Shown here: one piece after another, positions 857 through 10,756 of the stretch | Layout of the letters: each line of letters begins with the position of its first letter | Position numbering within the stretch: the stretch's first letter is position 1 | Source: Candidatus Kaiserbacteria bacterium | GTDB lineage: Bacteria > Patescibacteria > Paceibacteria > UBA9973 > UBA2100 | Reading direction: 5' to 3' | Assembly (NCBI GenBank): GCA_002401495.1 | Contig: NVTG01000041.1 | Span: forward strand, 1 to 10,756 | DNA: 10,756 nt | Translations under genes and position numbers: made by a program | Notes under the pieces: generated by a model | Database searches by the model: none | What the model saw: only the letters and a program-made list of their open reading frames with translations | Told to the model about the DNA's origin: nothing

Positions 857-3160
857 TTATCCACTGTTTTTACAAAGTGAAGACACTTTTTTATATTGAT
901 TTAATGAAGCCACTAACTGAGCAATCGTGCCATTATTATTAACAATGAACTGTGACTCATTTGACTGCAGCGCGTGTTTAATTTGCAGGTAGGGTTTTCG
1001 CCACTCTTTAATTCCTTCAATTAAGACCTTGTTATGCTTAATAAACTTATGCCATTCATCAACTTGTAATTGCAATGAGCTCTCAAGAGCTTTAGAACAA
1101 GACTGCTTGTAGTCAGCCACTTTATAATCAAACTCTCGCAGCATTAAGCTTTCAACTGGCAGCACATCAACTAACTTATCAAGGGGAGCCCCATGATGGT
1201 ATTCATCACGCAAATAAGCTAAATGATGCAAGGTGTAATAATGTGCAGGCTCTAAAAACTCGCTAAATTTTAGTAAATTAGCAATTTTCTCTTGTGTTAC
1301 ATTGTCGCCTAACAATGCCTTCAATCGAGCACTAAATTGCTGCTTATGCCGACCTCCATGCTGCAATGCAAACTCATCCATTACTGCTAAACGACGATAC
1401 ATATCTCGCTCATTTACTTGCGTTTTTGGCGACCAAAATCGCTCTGCAATCGCATATAAACGAGGCCATAAGCGAGTATCTAAGCTCTCTGTCGTTATAA
1501 GTTCGGCCCAGATAGTTGCTTCACCGCCCAACACCCTGCCACTTTTATCTTTACCTTGTTCATCGTGAAGTGAAATATTAAGTGCCGTTAAGCTTGGTTT
1601 ATTTTCTGACTTGCTTTTCATCTTGTATGGAGTGTTACCCACAAATGCAGTTTGATTACTTTCAATGTTTCCTACAAAAAGCTTTGTAGGCCCCATCCAA
1701 GTGTCTATCAATAACTCAAAACCGTGCTCTGATTGCGCAACTTGGTCAGTAATAAAATGCCCTTTTCCTTCTATGTATACCAATGCTGCTAACAAGGATT
1801 GAGTATCTCTAAATACCGTCACTTTTCCTTTGACTGAACTTCCTTTTAATCGTTTCAAAGTAAAAACTGAGTGGTTAATTACCTCTTTAGCAGTTACCCT
1901 TTTAGGTTTAATTGGATCTGGGTGGTTGCGATAGTGATAACTGGTCCATTGTGGTTGATCAATATAAAAGCCACTCGATAATAACCCATCGAACCCAGCT
2001 TCCTGTATAGCCGCGAGGGAATGATGGCCGCGCCAAGATTGCACTAAGGTTTGCTCGGGTAAGTTAGGGTGTAACACTTCATCCCAGCCTATCATCTTAC
2101 GATTATATTTTGCTAATATATCCGCAACTCGCTGATTAAAATAAGCATGCAAGCCATGCGTATCCGAAAGCTTATGCTTAGCCATAAATGATTGTATTTG
2201 AGTATTTTCTTGCCAATCTCTATCATCTATTTCATCACCACCAATATGTAAATAATGATCAGGAAATAACTCTGTCAATTCTTTAACAACTTCTTCAACA
2301 AAACGATAAACCTTAGGATTACTTGGATCTAATAAAGGCCTGAATACACCCCAGCGACGCTCTATCTCATCAAGTTTTGTTCCGCTGCCAAGCTCTGGGT
2401 AAGCAAGCACGATACTACTGGCATGGCCTGGCACATCAAATTCAGGCACAACTCGAATTCCTAAATTTGCTGCATATGCCACGACATCTTTGATTTCTTC
2501 TGCGGTATAAAAAAGCCCATCGGATGCAACTTGGTGTAATTTCGGGTAGCTTTTAAGGGCAACACGCCAGCCTTGATCATCGGTTAAATGCCAATGAAAT
2601 ACGTTCATTTTTGCTGATGCTAGCCCTCGCAATGTCCGTTTTACATCACTAATAGGTAAAAAATGCCTCACGCTATCAAATAACAATCCACGCCATGGAT
2701 AAGTGGGAGCATCGTTGATTGTCATTGCATTAAGTTGATAAGGTGTCTTTGCTGAAAATAGCAATTGATTAAGCGTTGCAAAACCGCGCAACATGCCAAA
2801 TTGTGTTTGGCTTTTAAGTGTTATGGCCTTAGTGCTAATAATCAGTTGATAACTTTCATCAACATCTAATCGAGGGATATCACCCAGCCAAGCAGCCACC
2901 TCAATTTTTAACTGAGCACTGCGCTTATCTTGCCAAGTAACTGATGAAAAATTTTGTAAAAACGCCGTATTTTCAAATAGTAACTTACTTGAGTTTCTGT
3001 ACTTTTCATCAAGGTAAACTGATAGATGGCTCGATGTCAGTTGCAGCTGGCCATCAAGATTCGTCACACTTACAGGCATAGGCATCAACAATGGCGGTTT
3101 AGCGACGGCAGTGCCTGTCACGCATAAAGCACACATCAATAAACGTAAAAAATAAGTCAT
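857..3160 (-). CDS. Secreted beta-N-acetylhexosaminidase, glycoside hydrolase family 20
   Basis: The 767-residue protein releases terminal N-acetylhexosamine from the non-reducing end of chito-oligosaccharides. It starts with a Sec signal peptide (residues 1-20, cleavage near AVA|KPP), placing it in the periplasm or outside the cell. An N-terminal GH20b-type domain spans about 22-150 and the catalytic barrel starts at PWRGLL (155). Barrel motifs are HWHLTDDQGWR (189-199), VPEFDVPGH (238-246) and HIGGDE (305-310). D309-E310 is the catalytic pair of the substrate-assisted mechanism, in which the substrate acetamido group is the nucleophile. Later motifs are GGEATIW (545-551) and WPRLYAIAERFW (565-576). 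About 120 residues (roughly 419-540) are inserted between strands that are normally close, and a helical-looking tail follows to the end. A GAGGG ribosome site lies in the last codons of kdgK, and the ATG is 3 bp after that gene's TAA, so it is the last gene of the operon. In context it would trim oxidised chito-oligosaccharides to GlcNAc plus GlcNAc1A. Confidence 0.93.
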   Translation of the reverse strand: MTYFLRLLMCALCVTGTAVAKPPLLMPMPVSVTNLDGQLQLTSSHLSVYLDEKYRNSSKLLFENTAFLQNFSSVTWQDKRSAQLKIEVAAWLGDIPRLDVDESYQLIISTKAITLKSQTQFGMLRGFATLNQLLFSAKTPYQLNAMTINDAPTYPWRGLLFDSVRHFLPISDVKRTLRGLASAKMNVFHWHLTDDQGWRVALKSYPKLHQVASDGLFYTAEEIKDVVAYAANLGIRVVPEFDVPGHASSIVLAYPELGSGTKLDEIERRWGVFRPLLDPSNPKVYRFVEEVVKELTELFPDHYLHIGGDEIDDRDWQENTQIQSFMAKHKLSDTHGLHAYFNQRVADILAKYNRKMIGWDEVLHPNLPEQTLVQSWRGHHSLAAIQEAGFDGLLSSGFYIDQPQWTSYHYRNHPDPIKPKRVTAKEVINHSVFTLKRLKGSSVKGKVTVFRDTQSLLAALVYIEGKGHFITDQVAQSEHGFELLIDTWMGPTKLFVGNIESNQTAFVGNTPYKMKSKSENKPSLTALNISLHDEQGKDKSGRVLGGEATIWAELITTESLDTRLWPRLYAIAERFWSPKTQVNERDMYRRLAVMDEFALQHGGRHKQQFSARLKALLGDNVTQEKIANLLKFSEFLEPAHYYTLHHLAYLRDEYHHGAPLDKLVDVLPVESLMLREFDYKVADYKQSCSKALESSLQLQVDEWHKFIKHNKVLIEGIKEWRKPYLQIKHALQSNESQFIVNNNGTIAQLVASLNQYKKVSSLCKNSG

Positions 3161-3163
3161 TGC

Positions 3164-4078
3164 TTAACCCTCATTCGCTATTTGGATTGTTGTTGGCACT
3201 ATCGCTCCTTTTTGAGCAATAACCTGAAGCGCTACTTGTTGTGCGGTACTTATAGCCTGTTGTGTATTATGCGAGTATAAATATGTAGCTAAAAAACCCG
3301 CACTAAAGGCATCACCAGCGGAAGTGGTATCCACCACATGCTCAGCCTTTTGTACAGTAAAGCGTTGTATTTCCTTGTTATTGAGCACTAAAGTATCAGC
3401 TACACCTTGCTTAATAATCACCAGCTTATTGGTAAATTGTTGATAAAAGCTGACTAATTCTTTCTCATTACATTGACCAAAAACGCCATGATGATCATCG
3501 TCAGTCACAAATAAATAATCGGCAAGCTTGTAAGCGGTTAAATAAAACGGAGTCGCTTGCTCAGATTGCCAAAGAACCGAGCGGTAGTTGCTGTCAAAAA
3601 TCACTTTGCCACCTGCACGCTTAAAGTCATCTAATACGTCGAGTAGTAACTGCCGATTAGCTGTATCTAAAATAGCGAGACTAATTGCCGATAAATAACA
3701 ATGACTAAAGTGTGTAGTTCTTAACGATTCTATAAAGTTATGTTGTGTATCTAACTGAAAAAATTGTTTGGCAGCGCTGTCACTTCGTGCATAACAAAAT
3801 TTTCGCTCACCATGACTGTCAGTTGTAATTCCATAACGTCCTAATGTTTTATCCGTTGACGTTTGCACAAACGAAAGTGATAACCCTTGCTGTCGCCAAA
3901 GCGTCTGGGCAGCTTGGCTTATTTCATCAATACCGATAGCACTAACAAATTGCGCGTCTGCCTGTGGTGCTAAGCGTTTAAAGTACACTGCAGTGTTATA
4001 AACATCACCACCAAAACGAAGTACGTGCTCGTCATTTAATTCCTGCATAGCTTCACCAAAAAATGCGATTTTAATCAT
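3164..4078 (-). CDS. kdgK: 2-keto-3-deoxygluconate kinase (PfkB/ribokinase family)
   Basis: The 304-residue cytosolic kinase uses ATP to convert KDG to KDPG, the substrate of Entner-Doudoroff aldolase. Assignment rests on close similarity to the E. coli KdgK sequence as I remember it: an N-terminal GE-M-EL segment (8-13), FGGD-x-x-NT (22-29), YLS-x-ISLAIL (128-137), GGKVIFD-x-NYR (156-166) and DTTSAGDAFSAG (250-261). D256 is the catalytic base and the GGD at 23-25 belongs to the sugar-binding PfkB signature. The frame is open further upstream to an ATG at 4102, but the start at 4078 is preferred. It has AGAGAGG nine bases before it, starts with the typical MIKIAFFGE, and gives the family's usual length. 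This ATG overlaps the symporter's stop by 8 bp (ATGATTAA), implying translational coupling. The gene fixes the pathway's product as KDG, so the upstream enzymes should make KDG from an aldonate or amino-aldonate. No KDPG aldolase gene is in the window. Confidence 0.93.
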   Translation of the reverse strand: MIKIAFFGEAMQELNDEHVLRFGGDVYNTAVYFKRLAPQADAQFVSAIGIDEISQAAQTLWRQQGLSLSFVQTSTDKTLGRYGITTDSHGERKFCYARSDSAAKQFFQLDTQHNFIESLRTTHFSHCYLSAISLAILDTANRQLLLDVLDDFKRAGGKVIFDSNYRSVLWQSEQATPFYLTAYKLADYLFVTDDDHHGVFGQCNEKELVSFYQQFTNKLVIIKQGVADTLVLNNKEIQRFTVQKAEHVVDTTSAGDAFSAGFLATYLYSHNTQQAISTAQQVALQVIAQKGAIVPTTIQIANEG

Positions 4079-5519
4079 GATGCATCGCCTCTCTTTGTGC
4101 ATTTAAAATTGCTAATGCTTGTTCACTATCACATGTTTGTTTTGGAGTAATGAGCGTTACAAATACCGATAGAAGCATTGATGCAGTTGTCGCTGGAATA
4201 ATCGGATTACTCCAATAAGCTTGCCAACTCGGTATTAAAATGACCGCCATTGATACAATAAATGACACAAACAAGGCTGTCATTGCTCCTTGCCAATTAA
4301 AGCGCGGCCAAAAATGTCCGAGTAGAACACATACACATAATCCCGACATCAAAGTGGCAATCATATTGGTGATATAACCAATCACATCATTGGTAAGTAA
4401 TGCCAATAACAACGCGATACCAATAGTTAGCACCAGGCCAATTCGCGAAAGCATTATGACTTCACTTGCATGCGGCATCCGTTTAAATACCAGTATATAA
4501 ATATCACGTATAAGCACACTAACAGCCGCAATAGCATCTGAGCTAGCACTAGAAATAGTAGCTGAAAGTCCAGCAATAATAACCAGCGCAGCTAAGCCAA
4601 ACGGAAGCAGCTCAAAGGCCATGTAAGGGAAAGAAAATGCACTGTTTTCAAGTGATGGGTTTAGTTTGTATGCAGCCATACCAATAATCGCTGGCACGAT
4701 CGCAAAAAGCAGATATAAGCCGCCTGATAAATAAAACGACTGCCGGATACTTTTCACATGCTTGCCAGAATAAATACGTTGACGAAATGAAGGCGCGACT
4801 AAAACACCAATCAACACTGCAAAAAATAACGAAACCCCATGCACTACACCTATTTTATCTAACGATAAAAAGCTTTGATTTAATAAAGGTTGTGCTTCGT
4901 TTATTGCGACTAAACCATCTGCCTGATACAACGCGACACCCGCCATCAAGAAAAATCCTATAAACAACACAAGTGCTTGAATAGAGTCTGTCCATACAAC
5001 GGCTACATAACCACCAATAACAACATAAATACTAAAACCAAGTGCAATAAATAATTTAGCACTGAGCGGCGACAGACCTGTTAACCAAGCCAAATACATA
5101 CCACCACCCAATATATGTGCGCCAAGCCAACCGATACTGGCTACAAAAATAAAAATAGCGATAGTATTTTTAACAAGCGGATTGGCACCGACATAAAACG
5201 ATACTTCTTCGCTCATTGTCATAAATTCGTATTTTCTGACCGGCGCAAAAAGTTTAGCCAGCAATAAAATCCCGCACGCACCTCCGAGCCCATATATCAT
5301 GCCAGCCCAACCATTGCTGTAGGCAAAACCTACGGCTCCCATGGATGAGCCAGTTCCAACCATAGTTGCAACAGTAGTACCTAAGGTTAAAAAGAAAGGA
5401 AGGTTTCGTCCGCCTAGAAGAAAATCATCACCCGTTTTACTGTTACGACTAACCCACCAGCCAAACCAGATCATAAAAATCAGATAACCTAAAAAGGCCA
5501 TTAATAATTGCCACTTCAT
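4071..5519 (-). CDS. Sodium:solute symporter (SSS family), inner-membrane importer for the pathway substrate
   Basis: The 482-residue protein is strongly hydrophobic with about 13 predicted membrane spans. Family marks are the N-terminal [GD]DFLLGGRNLP segment (30-41), the GTGSSMGAVGFAY stretch (55-67), and the helix with A320-x-x-S323-S324. In SSS members such as vSGLT, A-x-x-S-S supplies the second sodium site, so sodium coupling is likely. The ATSSA-type helix is followed by the typical VLIRDIY (335-341). The start ATG has AGGA six bases upstream. The gene begins 128 bp after the Rid gene and overlaps kdgK by 8 bp. SSS proteins carry many solutes (sugars, sialic acid, amino acids, carboxylates), so substrate cannot be read from sequence. 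From its position between an N-acyl-D-amino-acid-type deacylase and KdgK I infer an acidic amino sugar such as N-acetylglucosaminate. The tail after about residue 458 is cytoplasmic-looking and polar. Confidence 0.92.
   Translation of the reverse strand: MKWQLLMAFLGYLIFMIWFGWWVSRNSKTGDDFLLGGRNLPFFLTLGTTVATMVGTGSSMGAVGFAYSNGWAGMIYGLGGACGILLLAKLFAPVRKYEFMTMSEEVSFYVGANPLVKNTIAIFIFVASIGWLGAHILGGGMYLAWLTGLSPLSAKLFIALGFSIYVVIGGYVAVVWTDSIQALVLFIGFFLMAGVALYQADGLVAINEAQPLLNQSFLSLDKIGVVHGVSLFFAVLIGVLVAPSFRQRIYSGKHVKSIRQSFYLSGGLYLLFAIVPAIIGMAAYKLNPSLENSAFSFPYMAFELLPFGLAALVIIAGLSATISSASSDAIAAVSVLIRDIYILVFKRMPHASEVIMLSRIGLVLTIGIALLLALLTNDVIGYITNMIATLMSGLCVCVLLGHFWPRFNWQGAMTALFVSFIVSMAVILIPSWQAYWSNPIIPATTASMLLSVFVTLITPKQTCDSEQALAILNAQREAMHHD
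4088..4094 (-). promoter_or_regulatory. Ribosome binding site that decides the kdgK start
   Basis: AGAGAGG on the minus strand lies nine bases upstream of the ATG at 4078, inside the last codons of the symporter. It supports that ATG over the in-frame ATG at 4102, which would add eight residues not expected in the family. Confidence 0.7.
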
Positions 5520-5609
5520 ACGACATCCTGCTTCACCTAAGCCTCATTATTATGTTTACTTGCTGTTTGGCTTGGTGCTTATAGTTATAATTTCGTTTCG
5601 TGCTTTTGA

Positions 5610-5635
5610 CGTTCAACAGCCTTTGCTGCTGAACG
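5610..5635 (-). other. Intercistronic RNA hairpin between the Rid gene and the symporter gene
   Basis: CGTTCAACAGC (5610-5620) and GCTGCTGAACG (5625-5635) form an 11-bp stem with a four-base loop. On the plus strand one pair is an A-C mismatch. In the minus-strand transcript that pair becomes G-U, so the stem is fully paired, pointing to a role in the operon mRNA. It starts 13 bases after the Rid stop codon. The transcript bases after it are UCAAAAGC, with no U-run, so it does not look like a standard intrinsic terminator. It may protect the upstream message from 3' exonucleases, or be an RNase processing site that sets different levels for upstream and downstream genes. Confidence 0.6.
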
Positions 5636-5647
5636 CTTTAATGTTTT

Positions 5648-6031
5648 TTAAGGTGCTTTATAACAAGTCACATCAACTTCGACTTTACAGTCAACAACCA
5701 GATCTGCGACTGCGCAAATACGTGCCGGCGGATGTTCGCCAAAAAATTCTTTAAATACCTTATTAAACGACTGAAAATAGCGTGAGTCGGTCAAAATCAC
5801 TTTTACATGCGCCACATGTTCAAGACCATAACCCGCTTCATCCATAATATCGATGCAGTTTTGAATCGCTAAACGCGACTGCTCAATAATGCCACCTTCA
5901 ACAACTTCACCATCTTTCATTGGTGTTTGCCCCGAAACCATTAACCAACCACCTGCTTCTATCGCTCGAGCAAAAGGTAAATGCTGTCCACCGGTGCCTG
6001 TACCACCTTCAATACCAATACGTCTGATCAT
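5648..6031 (-). CDS. RidA/YjgF/YER057c/UK114-family enamine/imine deaminase
   Basis: The 127-residue protein has the usual family length. Rid proteins are small trimeric cytosolic enzymes that hydrolyse reactive enamine/imine intermediates released by PLP-dependent dehydratases, giving the 2-oxo acid and ammonia. The sequence shows the VSGQTP block (about 32-37) and, near the C-terminus, PARICAVADL then KVEVDVTCYK. The arginine in PARIC (R104) matches the substrate-carboxylate arginine needed for deaminase activity in RidA. The frame is also open from a TTG at 6043, but GGAG six bases before the ATG at 6031 makes the ATG the start. That leaves one base after the amidohydrolase's TAA, so the two are translationally coupled. 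Co-transcription with the PLP lyase (8356-9603) gives a natural partner: an enamine from D-glucosaminate dehydration. Subfamily (RidA versus Rid1-7) is not settled by eye. Confidence 0.9.
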   Translation of the reverse strand: MIRRIGIEGGTGTGGQHLPFARAIEAGGWLMVSGQTPMKDGEVVEGGIIEQSRLAIQNCIDIMDEAGYGLEHVAHVKVILTDSRYFQSFNKVFKEFFGEHPPARICAVADLVVDCKVEVDVTCYKAP

Positions 6032-6032
6032 G

Positions 6033-7490
6033 TTATTCTCCAACTGATGTTAAAAATTTGCCCGAGTGTGCTGGCACAACTTGGTCATTAAGAAGTGTTG
6101 CCTGCCCGTTGGTCCATACACGATGGACGCCTGAAGCCGGCAATTCGGAATTAATAAATGTGGCGTTATCGCAAATGGCATCGCTGTCAAAAAGAACCAG
6201 ATCAGCAAACTTACCTAAGCCAATTTCACCACGATCGGTTAAACCATAATTACTCGCGCTTAACCCAGTCATTTTATGGATCGCTGTCGCAAGTGAAAAA
6301 ATACCGTCTTCGCGAGCGTATTTGCCTAACACACGTGGAAAAGACCCCCACAAACGGGGATGCGGATGAGGGTCACAAGGGAGACCATCTGAACCAATCA
6401 TGGTTTTATCAAAAGCGAGTATCATTGCTACGTCTTTTTCATTCAGACCATGATACACAGCGCCGGCTGGTTGCAGCTTTTTAGCGGTATCAATTAATGA
6501 CAACTGCCAATCATCAGCAATCTCTTGTAGTGAGCGCTCGGCCATTTCTGGATGTGGTTGTGACCACGTGATAAAAATTTCAAAGTCACTTGTCACTTGT
6601 TTTAAATCTAATGTACTTGAACTAGCGGCATAAGGATAAGCATCACAACTACAACGAGAATGCGCTCCCTGAACTGAAAATCGTTCGATTAACTCAGGCG
6701 CGCGTCCCCAGTTATTTTTACCAGCGCACTTGAGGTGAGAAATGATCACCTTAATATCAAACAGCTTTTCCATCGCAAATGCTTCATCCATAGCGTCAAG
6801 CACAGCATCAAATTCGGTGCGCAAATGTGTTGTGTACAGCGCATTATGTGCTTTTAGCACAGGTCCAAACGCTTGAACTTCATCAGTTGTGGCAAAATTC
6901 GCATTTTTATAGGCAAGGCCGGTACTTAATCCTAGCGCGCCAGCATTCAATGCACTTTCAAGCTGCCGACACATTTGAGTAACTTCGCTTTCAGTCGCCG
7001 TGCGCAATAAATCATCCATCACATTATTACGAAGCGTTGTGTGACCAACCAAAGCGGCTACATTGACATTCGAAGGAGCGCTTTGAATTGCTGCTATGTA
7101 ATCAGCCATGTTGGCAAACTTAAACTCACTGGCTGCACCGAGTAGGTTCATCGGATCAGGAGCGCATCCTTTAACAATTGCAGGGGCTGCACTGATCCCA
7201 CAATTCCCTGTGATTACGGTTGTGACACCTTGACTGATTTTTGCAGCCATATTTGGATTGCGCAGTACTTCAAGGTCATCGTGCGTGTGAACATCAATAA
7301 ACCCAGGAGCAAGGCATAGGCCTTTAGCATCAATGACTTCTTTTGCTGACAATGACGTTAATTTGCCAATGGCAACAATACGATCACCGCTAATAGCTAC
7401 ATCACAAGTAAGCGCTTCGTTGCCAAGGCCATCAAATACTTTAGCGCCTTGAATTAATGTATCAACAGGTTGTGAGACGGTGTACTGCAT
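6033..7490 (-). CDS. D-aminoacylase / N-acyl-D-amino-acid deacylase family amidohydrolase; inferred N-acetyl-D-glucosaminate deacetylase
   Basis: The 485-residue metal-dependent amidohydrolase has almost the same length as the characterised Alcaligenes D-aminoacylase. Its likely metal and catalytic residues fall at nearly the same positions: H68 and H70 (VHTHDD), C97 (TGNCG), H222 (THLR), H252 (SHLK) and D368 (GSDGLP). Other family marks are NWG (260-262), CDAYPYAAS (282-290), HPHPRLWGSFPRVL (375-388) and the C-terminal GEIGLGKFADLVLFD. No signal peptide is seen, so it is cytosolic. The family hydrolyses N-acyl-D-amino acids to D-amino acid plus carboxylate. N-acetyl-D-glucosaminate is chemically such a compound. 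With KdgK and a D-serine-dehydratase-like lyase in the same operon, I infer deacetylation of GlcNAc1A to D-glucosaminate. Action on ordinary N-acetyl-D-amino acids is the main alternative. AGGAG precedes the ATG, which is two bases after the regulator's TAG. Confidence 0.92.
   Translation of the reverse strand: MQYTVSQPVDTLIQGAKVFDGLGNEALTCDVAISGDRIVAIGKLTSLSAKEVIDAKGLCLAPGFIDVHTHDDLEVLRNPNMAAKISQGVTTVITGNCGISAAPAIVKGCAPDPMNLLGAASEFKFANMADYIAAIQSAPSNVNVAALVGHTTLRNNVMDDLLRTATESEVTQMCRQLESALNAGALGLSTGLAYKNANFATTDEVQAFGPVLKAHNALYTTHLRTEFDAVLDAMDEAFAMEKLFDIKVIISHLKCAGKNNWGRAPELIERFSVQGAHSRCSCDAYPYAASSSTLDLKQVTSDFEIFITWSQPHPEMAERSLQEIADDWQLSLIDTAKKLQPAGAVYHGLNEKDVAMILAFDKTMIGSDGLPCDPHPHPRLWGSFPRVLGKYAREDGIFSLATAIHKMTGLSASNYGLTDRGEIGLGKFADLVLFDSDAICDNATFINSELPASGVHRVWTNGQATLLNDQVVPAHSGKFLTSVGE
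6038..6041 (-). promoter_or_regulatory. Ribosome binding site that decides the Rid-protein start
   Basis: GGAG on the minus strand lies six bases upstream of the ATG at 6031 and within the last codons of the preceding gene. It favours the ATG over the in-frame TTG at 6043, which overlaps this site. Confidence 0.7.
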
Positions 7491-7492
7491 TG

Positions 7493-8344
7493 CTAATCTC
7501 CTATCGGTGCACGGTCCGGTCCTTGGCGATATTGATCAAGCTCATGCTTTATGCGGCGTAATTTTTCGCGAGATTTCTTTTGCGTCAAAATTGCGACTTC
7601 ACTGGCTAACACATCAACTGCAGCTAACATCGCATATCGCGCGGTGCTTGGCGTAAAAATGTAATCAGATTCGTTAGTTTTGATTGGCAAATGAATCGTG
7701 GCTAAATCTGCTAACTCACTTTGCGGACAGATTGCGATAACCTTAGCGCCATACTCTTTTGCAATACGCGCAGTATCAATCAAGTCACGAGCACAACCCG
7801 TCAGAGATAGCATCACAACGACGTCGCTCACATCAACACTTGCCGCCGTCATGCGCATCATCACAGGGTCACTGTAGGCATTACTTAAAATATCTAATCG
7901 AAACAGACGATTATGGCATTCCTGTGCAACTACGGAACTCCCCCCACCAACACCAAAAATTAAGCTATGGCGGCTATTGGCAATATATAGGGCAGCTTGC
8001 TCTACATCGGCTTGTTTAATTAGTCCTGCGTTGATATCTAAAATATCGTGAATTGCTTTGTAAATAGCGGGGATATCTTCTCGCTGCGTAGAACTTTCAT
8101 TTATAAATCGCTCACCTACTGCTAAAGATTGCGCAAGTTGTAACTTCATATCACGTACATTGCTACAACCTAGCGCTTTTGCTAAGCGGGTAATTGACGC
8201 ATGACTAACATTCGCTTTATCTGCTAAATCACTAATACTTGCAGAAGCTGCAAACTGCAGATCCGCCAAAATCAATTGAGCGACGGCTTGTTCTGATTGG
8301 CGCAAATGCCCTAAGCGCTCTTTTATTCTTGAAACTATATCCAA
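7493..8344 (-). CDS. RpiR/MurR-family transcriptional regulator (HTH + SIS domain)
   Basis: The 283-residue protein has an N-terminal RpiR-type helix-turn-helix domain (about 1-77, recognition region near SHASITRLAKALG at 47-59). A SIS sugar-phosphate-binding domain spans about 112-250, with the GVGGGSS loop (131-137) and SLTG (180-183). The family senses phosphosugars or related acids. HexR, a member, responds to KDPG. The start is TTG, set by AGGAG eight bases upstream, which overlaps the preceding gene's TAG. A TTG start may keep the level low. The gene sits second in the operon, so it likely controls its own expression with the operon and perhaps the divergent receptor. The paired TGTTA-N5-TAACA sites in the promoter region are its best candidate operators. 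KDPG, glucosaminate or GlcNAc1A are possible effectors; none can be chosen from sequence. Confidence 0.92.
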   Translation of the reverse strand: MDIVSRIKERLGHLRQSEQAVAQLILADLQFAASASISDLADKANVSHASITRLAKALGCSNVRDMKLQLAQSLAVGERFINESSTQREDIPAIYKAIHDILDINAGLIKQADVEQAALYIANSRHSLIFGVGGGSSVVAQECHNRLFRLDILSNAYSDPVMMRMTAASVDVSDVVVMLSLTGCARDLIDTARIAKEYGAKVIAICPQSELADLATIHLPIKTNESDYIFTPSTARYAMLAAVDVLASEVAILTQKKSREKLRRIKHELDQYRQGPDRAPIGD

Positions 8345-8352
8345 TCGTCTAT

Positions 8353-8357
8353 CTCCT
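8353..8357 (-). promoter_or_regulatory. Ribosome binding site for a TTG start (RpiR regulator)
   Basis: AGGAG on the minus strand lies eight bases before TTG at 8344-8342 and overlaps the stop codon of the upstream PLP-lyase gene. No ATG is available nearby in frame before the helix-turn-helix, so this site is what supports the unusual start. Confidence 0.7.
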
Positions 8358-9603
8358 AAAAATAAGTTTCGACCACATCAACTACGTTGTAGCTATCATC
8401 AATCACATTGATGTAGCGCCACTTATCAAATGTTAAGCACGGATGTGAAGTAGCAAATGCGACAATATCGCCAACTCGAAGTGTACAATCGAGTGGTACT
8501 TTCATCATTGCGTGCTGATCCATCATTTTCTCTATCTTCCAAGTGGGATCTGCTTTACTTACTTGCCCGTTTTGATCAACCAGTAGTGAAGGAATTGGAA
8601 ATCCCGCATCAAATGCAGCATCTCGCTTACCAAAACCAATAATCACTCGACCCGGTTCAGGTATTGATTGCACATACGCCCAAATTTCTAAGCATGAGGT
8701 AAGCTCAGTTTCTAAAGAGCATGCCAATTCATTTCGCGCTAAAATTTGCTGCTGTGCTTGTTCGTAAATACCTTGATCATGAGTGACATAACAGCCCGGA
8801 CGAAGCACAGCGACCATGTTTTGAGTCAGTTTTTCGGGATGAAATGCCTCACACACTAAGTCGTAGTAAGCTGATCCCCCCGCTGTAATCATCACTTGTT
8901 GTGTGTCAAATGCGTTATCAGCAATTAATTGCTTACACGTTGCGACTGCATATTCGAGGAACTGACTTACCGCTTCAGTTTGCGATAGCACTCCCTCATA
9001 AACTTCGATGCCAGCCAATGCAAGCGATTGATAGTTAGCTATTTCAGCAACCAATAATGTCAGCTCTTTACTATCAACAACGCCACAGCGCCCTCCCGGC
9101 ACACCAAGCTCGATCAACACATGAATCGTATGCTTAGTGTTAGCAAAGTACTCGCCAAGCATGCGTATAATATCTAGGTTATCAACCAAGCAATAAAAGG
9201 TTATGTCGTTAGCAGCAAGCAACTCATCTAATTGCTGGCAATTAGCACGGCCAACTAATTGATTTGCCATTAGCACTCTTTTTGCACCACTCTTTACAGC
9301 GGCATGTGATTGGGCAACTGTTGCGACCGTTATCGCGTAAGCCCCTGCAGCTAATTGCTTTTTAAAAATTGCAGGAGTCATCGTTGTTTTACCATGCGGT
9401 GCAAAAAGAACATGGCTTTTTTTTGTATAGTCAGCCATCCACTGAATATTATTTATTAAGCGTGATTCATACAGGCATAAACAAGGCAAACTGACATCTT
9501 GCTTAGCGACATTCCAACCTGATGAAAATAGTTTTTGGTAATTACCAAGCCCTTTATTAGCTCGATTTACTGTTTCTAGGTTTGCGACACTAAATTTTTC
9601 CAT
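8356..9603 (-). CDS. Fold-type III PLP lyase of the D-serine dehydratase / D-threonine aldolase family; inferred D-glucosaminate dehydratase
   Basis: The 415-residue protein has an N-terminal alanine-racemase-like barrel and a C-terminal beta domain. The likely PLP lysine is K72 in the APHGKT motif (69-74). Other family marks are PGGRCG (169-174), ITAGGS (239-244), LRPG-x-YVTHD (267-276) and the C-terminal SHPC (386-389), whose His and Cys match the divalent-metal ligands of eukaryotic DSD1-type D-serine dehydratases. These enzymes act on beta-hydroxy D-amino acids. D-glucosaminate has that structure, and its dehydration with loss of ammonia gives KDG, the substrate of KdgK downstream. PLP- and Mn-dependent D-glucosaminate dehydratase activity is known from Pseudomonas. 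D-serine or D-threonine as substrates is the alternative. The frame extends upstream to a TTG at 9627, but ATG at 9603 with CAGG eight bases before it is better supported. It is the first gene of the operon. Confidence 0.88.
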   Translation of the reverse strand: MEKFSVANLETVNRANKGLGNYQKLFSSGWNVAKQDVSLPCLCLYESRLINNIQWMADYTKKSHVLFAPHGKTTMTPAIFKKQLAAGAYAITVATVAQSHAAVKSGAKRVLMANQLVGRANCQQLDELLAANDITFYCLVDNLDIIRMLGEYFANTKHTIHVLIELGVPGGRCGVVDSKELTLLVAEIANYQSLALAGIEVYEGVLSQTEAVSQFLEYAVATCKQLIADNAFDTQQVMITAGGSAYYDLVCEAFHPEKLTQNMVAVLRPGCYVTHDQGIYEQAQQQILARNELACSLETELTSCLEIWAYVQSIPEPGRVIIGFGKRDAAFDAGFPIPSLLVDQNGQVSKADPTWKIEKMMDQHAMMKVPLDCTLRVGDIVAFATSHPCLTFDKWRYINVIDDSYNVVDVVETYF

Positions 9604-9710
9604 TTCAAAAGCCTGTTTATAAATCAATCAGTTAATGGCGATAGTTTAAAAATCAAACAAAAAATATAACGCTTTTAATGTAATTGTTATTGCAATTTTG
9701 TTAAATCTAA

Positions 9711-9725
9711 TGTTAATTAATAACA
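9711..9725. promoter_or_regulatory. Candidate operator 1: TGTTA-N5-TAACA
   Basis: TGTTAATTAATAACA is a 15-bp palindrome with one mismatched pair. The outer five bases on each side are a perfect inverted repeat and are repeated exactly in the second site 32 bp away. The length and TGTnA...TnACA form resemble the HexR box (about TGTAATTAAATTACA), HexR being an RpiR-family protein like the regulator encoded in the cluster. Binding by that regulator is inferred. Confidence 0.6.
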
Positions 9726-9742
9726 CACACACAGTCAATACG

Positions 9743-9757
9743 TGTTACAAATTAACA
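9743..9757. promoter_or_regulatory. Candidate operator 2: TGTTA-N5-TAACA, overlapping the receptor -35
   Basis: TGTTACAAATTAACA has the same perfect 5-bp arms as operator 1 around a different 5-bp centre, so the arms rather than the centre are shared. It begins 32 bp after operator 1, about three helical turns, placing both on the same DNA face. Its right arm lies inside the predicted -35 hexamer (9752-9757), the position expected for a repressor. Confidence 0.6.
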
Positions 9758-9780
9758 AAAAATAATAATTACCCTAAAAT
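9752..9780 (+). promoter_or_regulatory. Predicted sigma-70 promoter of the TonB-dependent receptor
   Basis: TTAACA (9752-9757) matches five of six bases of the -35 consensus and TAAAAT (9775-9780) five of six of the -10, with an ideal 17-bp spacer. Transcription would begin near 9787, giving a short leader of about 17 bases that just contains the GAGGAA ribosome site at 9790-9795. Confidence 0.6.
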
Positions 9781-9803
9781 AAACAGGATGAGGAACGTTA
9801 AAA

Positions 9804-10756
9804 ATGAAATCTCAAACCCGTCGCCAACATAAACTGAGTCGCAGTATCACGGCTAATGCCGTTGCTGCTGTTATTTGCGGTTATACCAGCTTCAATGCGA
9901 TTGCTGCAGATCAAAACTCTTTAACAAATGAAGAAATCGAAACCATTGAAGTCCGAGGTATTGCAGCCAGTAACAAGCAAGATATAAATAACAAACGCTT
10001 TAGTACTGGTGTAATGGATTCAATCACCGCTGAAGACATTGGTAAATTACCCGATGTAACGATCGCAGATACTTTACAACGTATTCCAGGTATTCAAATT
10101 CGTCGCTCGGCGGGGGAAGGTTCAACCATCAATGTTCGCGGTATGCCGCAAGTGACAACGCTGTTAAATGGCGAACAGTTTTTAAGTGCAGGTTCAATTA
10201 CCACGTTACAACCTGACTTTACCGACGTACCGGCAGCGCTACTCTCAGGTATTGATGTACTTAAATCACCTCAAGCAGATACGCTAGCAGGCGGTATCTC
10301 TGGCACTCTAGATCTAAAAACACGCAGACCATTCGATTTAGAGCAAGGTACTACCTTCTCATTCACTGGAGAGGCCACTCGTGGCAGCCTATCAGAAGAA
10401 ACTGATCCAAAAGTGGTTGCTTTTGCGGGTTATAACAACGATGACTTTGGGATTATTTTTACTGCTGCTTACGATGAAGGCACGCTTGCTAACTACCGAA
10501 ACGGTACAATTTTGACATCAAGCGAAGTTAAAGATGAGACTACTCGCGATTTTAACGGTGACGGTGATCTAAATGACAGTTTCTACAGCCAACGATTTTA
10601 TGGTGTGATGCACCGTGAAACGGAGAGAGAACGTTTAGGCTTAAACACCACAGTTCAATATCGAATTTCAGACGCAGTGACATTTACTCAACTCGGCATT
10701 GATGCGCTGGGCTATGAACCAGACCAAAAAGACCTCTACATGGAGGCATTACAGCA
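9804..10756 (+). CDS. TonB-dependent outer-membrane receptor (partial, C-terminus beyond window)
   Basis: The frame is open from ATG 9804 to the window edge (317 complete codons). GAGGAA lies eight bases upstream of the ATG. A basic n-region and hydrophobic stretch form a signal peptide with likely cleavage at AIAA|DQ (residue 35). A TonB-box-like IETIEVRG follows (45-52). The plug domain then has DVTIADTLQRIPGIQI (84-99), GEGSTINVRGM and LNGEQFL, ending near DLKTRRPF, after which barrel strands begin. This pattern is that of the large receptors often called the TonB-Xanth-Caul type, common next to carbohydrate-use genes in Alteromonadales, Xanthomonas and Caulobacter. A DFNGDGDLND stretch (249-258) looks like a calcium-binding loop in an extracellular segment. 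Divergence from the operon and shared candidate operators suggest it imports (oxidised) chito-oligosaccharides across the outer membrane. The substrate is inferred from context only. Confidence 0.93.
   Translation, partial: MKSQTRRQHKLSRSITANAVAAVICGYTSFNAIAADQNSLTNEEIETIEVRGIAASNKQDINNKRFSTGVMDSITAEDIGKLPDVTIADTLQRIPGIQIRRSAGEGSTINVRGMPQVTTLLNGEQFLSAGSITTLQPDFTDVPAALLSGIDVLKSPQADTLAGGISGTLDLKTRRPFDLEQGTTFSFTGEATRGSLSEETDPKVVAFAGYNNDDFGIIFTAAYDEGTLANYRNGTILTSSEVKDETTRDFNGDGDLNDSFYSQRFYGVMHRETERERLGLNTTVQYRISDAVTFTQLGIDALGYEPDQKDLYMEALQ
10548..10577 (+). other. EF-hand/dockerin-like acidic loop in the receptor
   Basis: Residues 249-258, DFNGDGDLND, have the D-x-N-x-D-G start of calcium-binding loops with extra acidic residues, but not the usual residue at position 12. 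Its place after the plug and first barrel strands suggests a surface loop. Calcium binding is an inference. Confidence 0.4.

Follow-up and report, generated by a model that had tools for sequence, protein, structure and literature searches.

An oxidized N-acetylglucosamine utilization cluster of the Pseudoalteromonas type and a predicted operator of its repressor OngR

Contig NVTG01000041.1 (10,756 nucleotides; the window, meaning the whole stretch analysed) carries a tightly packed set of minus-strand genes and a divergent plus-strand receptor gene, their domains assigned by Pfam and NCBIfam profile searches. From their content and order, we are highly confident that the window as a whole is best explained as an ong cluster of the Pseudoalteromonas type, dedicated to the utilization of oxidized N-acetylglucosamine (GlcNAc1A). 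The cluster is orthologous to a published system that has been worked out by experiment, and the route from GlcNAc1A through glucosaminate and 2-keto-3-deoxygluconate (KDG) to 2-keto-3-deoxy-6-phosphogluconate (KDPG) is already known; the one addition made here, a modest and well-supported extension, is a likely operator of the repressor OngR, predicted from conserved palindromes. The features are listed below, with protein identities to the corresponding locus of Pseudoalteromonas prydzensis DSM 14232 (L005).

857–3160, minus strand: ongA, GH20 β-N-acetylhexosaminidase (Pfam GH20, 319 bits), in the same place in L005 with 59.5% identity
3164–4078, minus strand: kdgK, 2-keto-3-deoxygluconate kinase (Pfam PfkB), 53.7% identity
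4071–5519, minus strand: ongIT, SSS-family inner-membrane importer, predicted to take up GlcNAc1A (Pfam SSF, 132 bits), 86.1% identity
5648–6031, minus strand: ongD, RidA-family protein of 127 amino acids (Pfam Ribonuc_L-PSP), 89.8% identity
6033–7490, minus strand: ongB, predicted GlcNAc1A deacetylase with an amidohydrolase domain (823 bits to PpOngB, PDB 9kb1)
7493–8344, minus strand: ongR, MurR/RpiR-family repressor (Pfam HTH_6 and SIS), 87.3% identity
8356–9603, minus strand: ongC, predicted pyridoxal phosphate (PLP)-dependent glucosaminate deaminase yielding KDG and ammonia (D-ser_dehydrat and Ala_racemase_N), 62.4% identity
9710–9738, minus strand: predicted ongC promoter (TTGACT, 17 bp, TAACAT; consensus scan), its TTGACT kept in all six aligned intergenic regions
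9711–9725, no strand assigned: predicted OngR operator site TGTTAATTAATAACA, overlapping the predicted ongC −10 element
9743–9757, no strand assigned: predicted OngR operator site TGTTACAAATTAACA, overlapping the predicted ongOT-1 −35 element
9752–9780, plus strand: predicted ongOT-1 promoter (TTAACA, 17 bp, TAAAAT; consensus scan, weak alone)
9804–10756, plus strand: ongOT-1, TonB-dependent outer-membrane receptor with a Plug domain (first 317 amino acids, the rest beyond the window end)

The gene coordinates agree with those of a first-pass annotation made from the sequence, including the ATG of ongC at 9603; within an open reading frame (ORF) spanning 8356–9627, this start gives 415 amino acids, the ORF length also found in L001, L002 and L005. 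For ongD (ORF 5648–6043), the likeliest start is 6031, giving the 127 amino acids of the published OngD (PMC9537276), and for kdgK (ORF 3164–4102), an alternative upstream start at 4102 is possible. The best NCBIfam model for kdgK is 2-dehydro-3-deoxygluconokinase, at 257.7 bits and under the cut-off of 400 for that model.

The gene order, with ongOT-1 divergent from ongC-ongR-ongB-ongD, followed by ongIT-kdgK-ongA, is that of the published cluster: all eight ong genes stand together as in P. prydzensis, the receptor being truncated by the window end. In strain ACAM 620 of that species these genes form three transcription units, ongOT-1, ongCRBD and ongIT-kdgK-ongA, and the 128-bp gap between ongD and ongIT in the window fits the published operon break; the window differs from the ACAM 620 cluster in sequence, with no functional difference seen relative to the system as the main text describes it (PMC9537276). 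The first-pass annotation had named a KdgK, a D-aminoacylase homologue, a PLP lyase, a Rid protein, a GH20 enzyme, an SSS importer and a TonB receptor, all of which are present by ORF and Pfam evidence, and its suspicion of a link to a chitin-oxidation pathway of Pseudoalteromonas is borne out by the identical gene order. The regulator at 7493–8344, absent from its reasoning, also belongs to the cluster.

Work in ACAM 620 that combined deletions with in vitro assays and mass spectrometry assigned the conversion of GlcNAc1A to glucosaminate to OngB, of glucosaminate to KDG and ammonia to OngC, and of KDG to KDG-6-phosphate to KdgK, with the aldolase step given as a hypothesis only (PMC9537276). 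The sequence of deacetylation, dehydration and deamination to KDG, and phosphorylation to KDPG that had been deduced for the window from its chemistry is this same pathway, found in the same genus and gene order; a pathway published in 2022 was recovered by a chemistry-based reading of sequence alone. By homology to ACAM 620, C1-oxidized chito-oligosaccharides released in the window strain by a lytic polysaccharide monooxygenase (LPMO) encoded elsewhere would be taken into the periplasm by the TonB receptor. OngA, periplasmic by homology and expected to split GlcNAc-GlcNAc1A, would cut them to GlcNAc and GlcNAc1A, and OngIT would import the latter for deacetylation by OngB, deamination to KDG by OngC and conversion by KdgK to KDPG, the presumed substrate of an aldolase encoded elsewhere.

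The pathway had been described as self-contained, which goes too far, as neither an LPMO nor a KDPG aldolase is among the Pfam domain matches of the window. The closest genome found (G089) has one LPMO_10 and one KDPG aldolase match, each on a contig other than that of its ong cluster. Among 108 genomes of the genus, 32 bear OngB (E below 1e-160), and an LPMO occurs in 32 of these 32 versus 52 of the 76 others (Fisher p = 8e-5, from a hand tally of related genomes that are not independent). A search for the pathway in two Aeromonas reportedly gave no close counterpart of OngB or OngC, the matches being distant or lacking altogether (PMC11653859).

OngD keeps the PAR-motif arginine in the five displayed alignments to Rid structures. 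This arginine is needed for the imine/enamine deaminase activity of RidA. In PMC9537276, which assigns no role to OngD, deletion of ongD abolishes growth on GlcNAc1A; our preferred explanation is that OngD probably clears the imine or enamine that OngC would release. Window OngD is 83–84% identical to its counterparts in two Vibrio genomes, against 36–57% for the remaining ong proteins of L016. The idea that OngD is exceptionally conserved was weakened by a further Rid protein in these genomes, which is 78–83% conserved.

The generic family names would also suit an operon for the catabolism of N-acyl-D-amino acids (or D-serine), comprising a deacylase, a D-amino acid deaminase and a Rid protein. 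Window OngB aligns without gaps to PpOngB over residues 1–484 (mutant PpOngB entries score 820 bits), ahead of the amidohydrolase 9g5m (551 bits) and of its D-aminoacylase relatives, the Alcaligenes enzyme 1m7j (445 bits) and 3gip (346 bits). Window OngB departs from PpOngB at about 25% of its residues and shares the zinc site, the catalytic Asp368 and the specificity residues. The study of the GlcNAc1A deacetylases PpOngB, PaOngB and PfOngB, with structures 9kb1, 9kb3 and 9kb4, reports the same fold and metal site as in D-aminoacylases and names the zinc ligands Cys97, His222 and His252, the catalytic Asp368 and the substrate contacts (PMC12017989). Cys97, His222, His252, Asp368, Ser290, Ser291, Ser292 and Gln298 all recur in the window protein, as do the residues reported for PpOngB at 16 of 16 active-site positions compared and at 20 of the 21 named positions checked; the exception, ‘Cys79’ of the α metal site, is Pro in the ungapped alignment and in that paper is probably a misprint for Cys97.

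Ser292 and Gln298 separate GlcNAc1A deacetylases from D-aminoacylases, which have Thr and Leu/Arg at these positions (PMC12017989). With Ser and Gln there and a subtype V zinc site, window OngB groups with the former and departs from the AfDam/BbDam type, and the two residues are found in 81 of 81 proteins when window OngB is joined by those of the best 80 of 592 confirmed loci (the closest ones, and hence a biased set). PpOngB and two homologues are reported to have no detectable activity on N-acetyl-D-amino acids, and PaOngB of P. arabiensis to be active only on GlcNAc1A (PMC12017989). A KDG kinase, a GH20 enzyme and a TonB receptor would also have no evident place in a D-amino acid operon, which we judge very improbable.

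The same chemistry could in principle act on another amino-sugar acid or on peptidoglycan-derived sugars; GH20 enzymes and RpiR regulators occur in such pathways too, and kdgK and ongA have diverged considerably from their L005 counterparts. Set against this, the residues through which PpOngB contacts the GlcNAc1A hydroxyls at C3 to C6 (Ser290, Ser292, Glu226 and Gln298) are unchanged in the window (PMC12017989), and the cluster co-occurs with an LPMO in the genus; we give a substrate other than GlcNAc1A next to no credence. Beyond the genus, the two Pseudomonas loci examined have an OngB with Ser292 and Gln298 and a GntP-family (gluconate-type) permease gene before an OngR-like regulator (L034:7743-9116, 505 bits; L054:7710-9113, 514 bits), and OngC was not found in either locus, which suggests another route after deacetylation there.

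The intergenic region between ongC and ongOT-1 (9604–9803) contains two 15-bp palindromes of the form TGTTA-N5-TAACA, 32 bp apart. The five closest loci all retain the pair, and in L003 one of the sites has a single mismatch. In ACAM 620, OngR represses ongOT-1 and ongCRBD, not ongIT-kdgK-ongA (PMC9537276); because the pair lies at both repressed promoters and no match precedes the unrepressed ongIT, it is likely to be the OngR operator. OngR would thereby repress both units through the two palindromes, which overlie the divergent promoters. The sole further match in the window (one mismatch) is inside ongA, and in L005 a single one-mismatch site lies 306 bp before ongIT. A literature search on OngR, GlcNAc1A and RpiR returned PMC9537276 alone, with no operator description found; ‘binding site’, ‘palindrom’ and ‘intergenic’ are absent from its main text, while supplements and regulon databases lay outside the search and an earlier prediction is possible. 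Our first operator candidate, the inverted repeat TGCAAT-N4-ATTACA (9679–9694), is kept in six of six close loci; its form occurs in none of ten more distant loci scanned, and it was dropped in favour of the TGTTA-N5-TAACA pair.

The operator pattern was chosen from six sequences (the window and the five closest loci) and then tested on L006 to L080, that is, 75 loci of which 48 have ongC, 21 the regulator only and 6 neither; related loci are not independent, L006 and L027 had already been seen to contain TGTTA-type repeats, and the limit of 250 bp was chosen with the results of an earlier locus scan in view. Of 47 usable test loci, 27 have a site with no more than one mismatch in the 250 bp upstream of ongC, where dinucleotide shuffles would give 0.92. 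Upstream of ongB, the count is 9 of 48 (0.37 expected), the space being shared in some with a divergent ongC; no site precedes ongD in the 48 test loci (0.46 expected) or the regulator in the 21 test loci without ongC.

Across the genus, 28 of 108 genomes contain the exact pair, each of them once, compared with 0 of 108 for a backward-read control, and the pair is concentrated in genomes with OngB (21 of 32 versus 7 of 76 others; Fisher p = 5e-9, from a tally). When one mismatch per site and a spacing of 30–34 bp are allowed, each of the 32 OngB genomes has a single pair, at a spacing of 32 or 33 bp, in examined regions of 1.9 to 19 kb per genome and for a form counted without a shuffle control. 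This relaxed pair lies 84–126 bp before ongC in 17 of the 32, with the receptor gene divergent where found (15 of 17), and 107–144 bp before a receptor gene in the other 15, where ongC follows 3.4–3.7 kb on in 11 and the retrieved piece stops before ongC in 4. The pair thus goes with whichever gene heads the unit when the layout changes.

HexR and RccR, which like OngR belong to the RpiR family, bind 15-bp palindromic sites of similar form, RccR at two copies before aceE, with a half site of TGTAA rather than TGTTA (PMC5489143 and PMC11906056). That the predicted half site is one base off the HexR consensus TGTAATTAAATTACA (PMC11906056), together with the exact pair found in genomes without OngB, would be expected if the palindromes served another regulator, HexR-like or unrelated. 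OngR itself scores 178.8 bits against the NCBIfam HexR model, whose curated cut-off is 296, and HexR-type sites TGTAATNNNATTACA number 0 to 2 per genome in four genomes. The RpiR-family match that comes next after OngR in the two Pseudoalteromonas genomes searched is only 25–26% identical; the pair accompanies the ong genes throughout the 32 genomes, moving before the receptor gene when that gene heads the operon, and the 21 loci with a related regulator and no ongC lack the site. We consider it unlikely, on balance, that a regulator other than OngR is the one served.

Several observations weigh against the reading of the window as an ong cluster under an OngR operator. Twenty of the 47 test loci have no site upstream of ongC, and seven genomes without OngB have the exact pair beside other genes (some of which look receptor-like or pilin-like by eye), so that ong clusters are not the only place where it occurs. 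Taken by itself, the window shows the pattern at an only mildly unusual frequency, with three matches at up to one mismatch against a shuffle mean of 0.80, a number that 10 of 200 shuffles reach. The LPMO and KDPG aldolase of the window strain were sought only in the genomes of relatives; kdgK (54%) and ongA (60%) are the most diverged genes relative to L005; and because P. haloplanktis has no kdgK at the ong position, the KDG kinase may be replaceable.

As HexR and RccR respond to KDPG (PMC5489143) and KDPG is also the end of this pathway, KDPG is suggested by analogy as the effector of OngR. Induction in ACAM 620 is by GlcNAc1A, not by glucose (PMC9537276). The SIS glycine loop (GxGGxS form) is one residue longer in 20 of 20 OngR-type proteins than in the other RpiR-family proteins that these searches gave (8 of 8), and the pocket may therefore differ. 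Window OngR and the two closest proteins compared have lost the Ser/Thr at the end of the second SIS motif, but several more distant ones keep it, which makes its loss a weak argument against KDPG. An unphosphorylated effector is plausible, and we tentatively propose, with more doubt than conviction, that OngR binds the two palindromes about three helical turns apart, shutting both ong promoters, and senses GlcNAc1A, glucosaminate or KDG, not KDPG. Some loci of Burkholderiales and Vibrionaceae also have sites of this form upstream of ongC; if the proposal is true, the switch would be shared across Proteobacteria. The operator prediction makes the action and effector of OngR directly testable and offers a DNA marker for OngR-regulated genes.

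The named relatives of the window are Pseudoalteromonas, the nearest being P. arabiensis (L001; OngB and OngC each 84% identical), and among the 108 genomes of its genus, G089 has an OngB 97% identical and a region 93.7% identical to the window over 10,690 bp in the same order. P. prydzensis DSM 14232, which we take to be the same strain as ACAM 620, matches the window in gene order and orientation, with proteins 54–90% identical (OngB 75.3%); the first 60 residues of its OngB are identical to the solved PpOngB. A mosaic origin of kdgK-ongA (63% and 68% identical to L001 versus 84–97% for other ong proteins) was rejected because the same two genes are the most diverged of those compared between L001 and L005 (56% and 60%), which indicates faster evolution. 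In P. haloplanktis ATCC 14393 (L002:13441-13448), ongIT is followed directly by ongA, and the best-scoring kdgK-like gene elsewhere is 37% identical.

The consensus scan for promoters is weak alone, as shuffled sequences contain on average more promoter-like sites (28.6) than the window does (17), and Rfam gave no matches in the window at gathering scores. At the other end of the window, positions 3–716 encode part of a double-PAS protein, complete in the closest relative locus (L150) with an MCP signalling domain; it probably lies outside the ong system, because it adjoins ongA in the window and L150 but not in L001, L002 or L005. In L150, ongOT-1 is a complete ORF with its β-barrel domain, and beyond it lie a carboxylesterase-family gene in the same direction and a Sir2 gene (L150:894-2486 and 138-857); by eye, ORFs with similar starts occupy that place in L001, L002 and L005.

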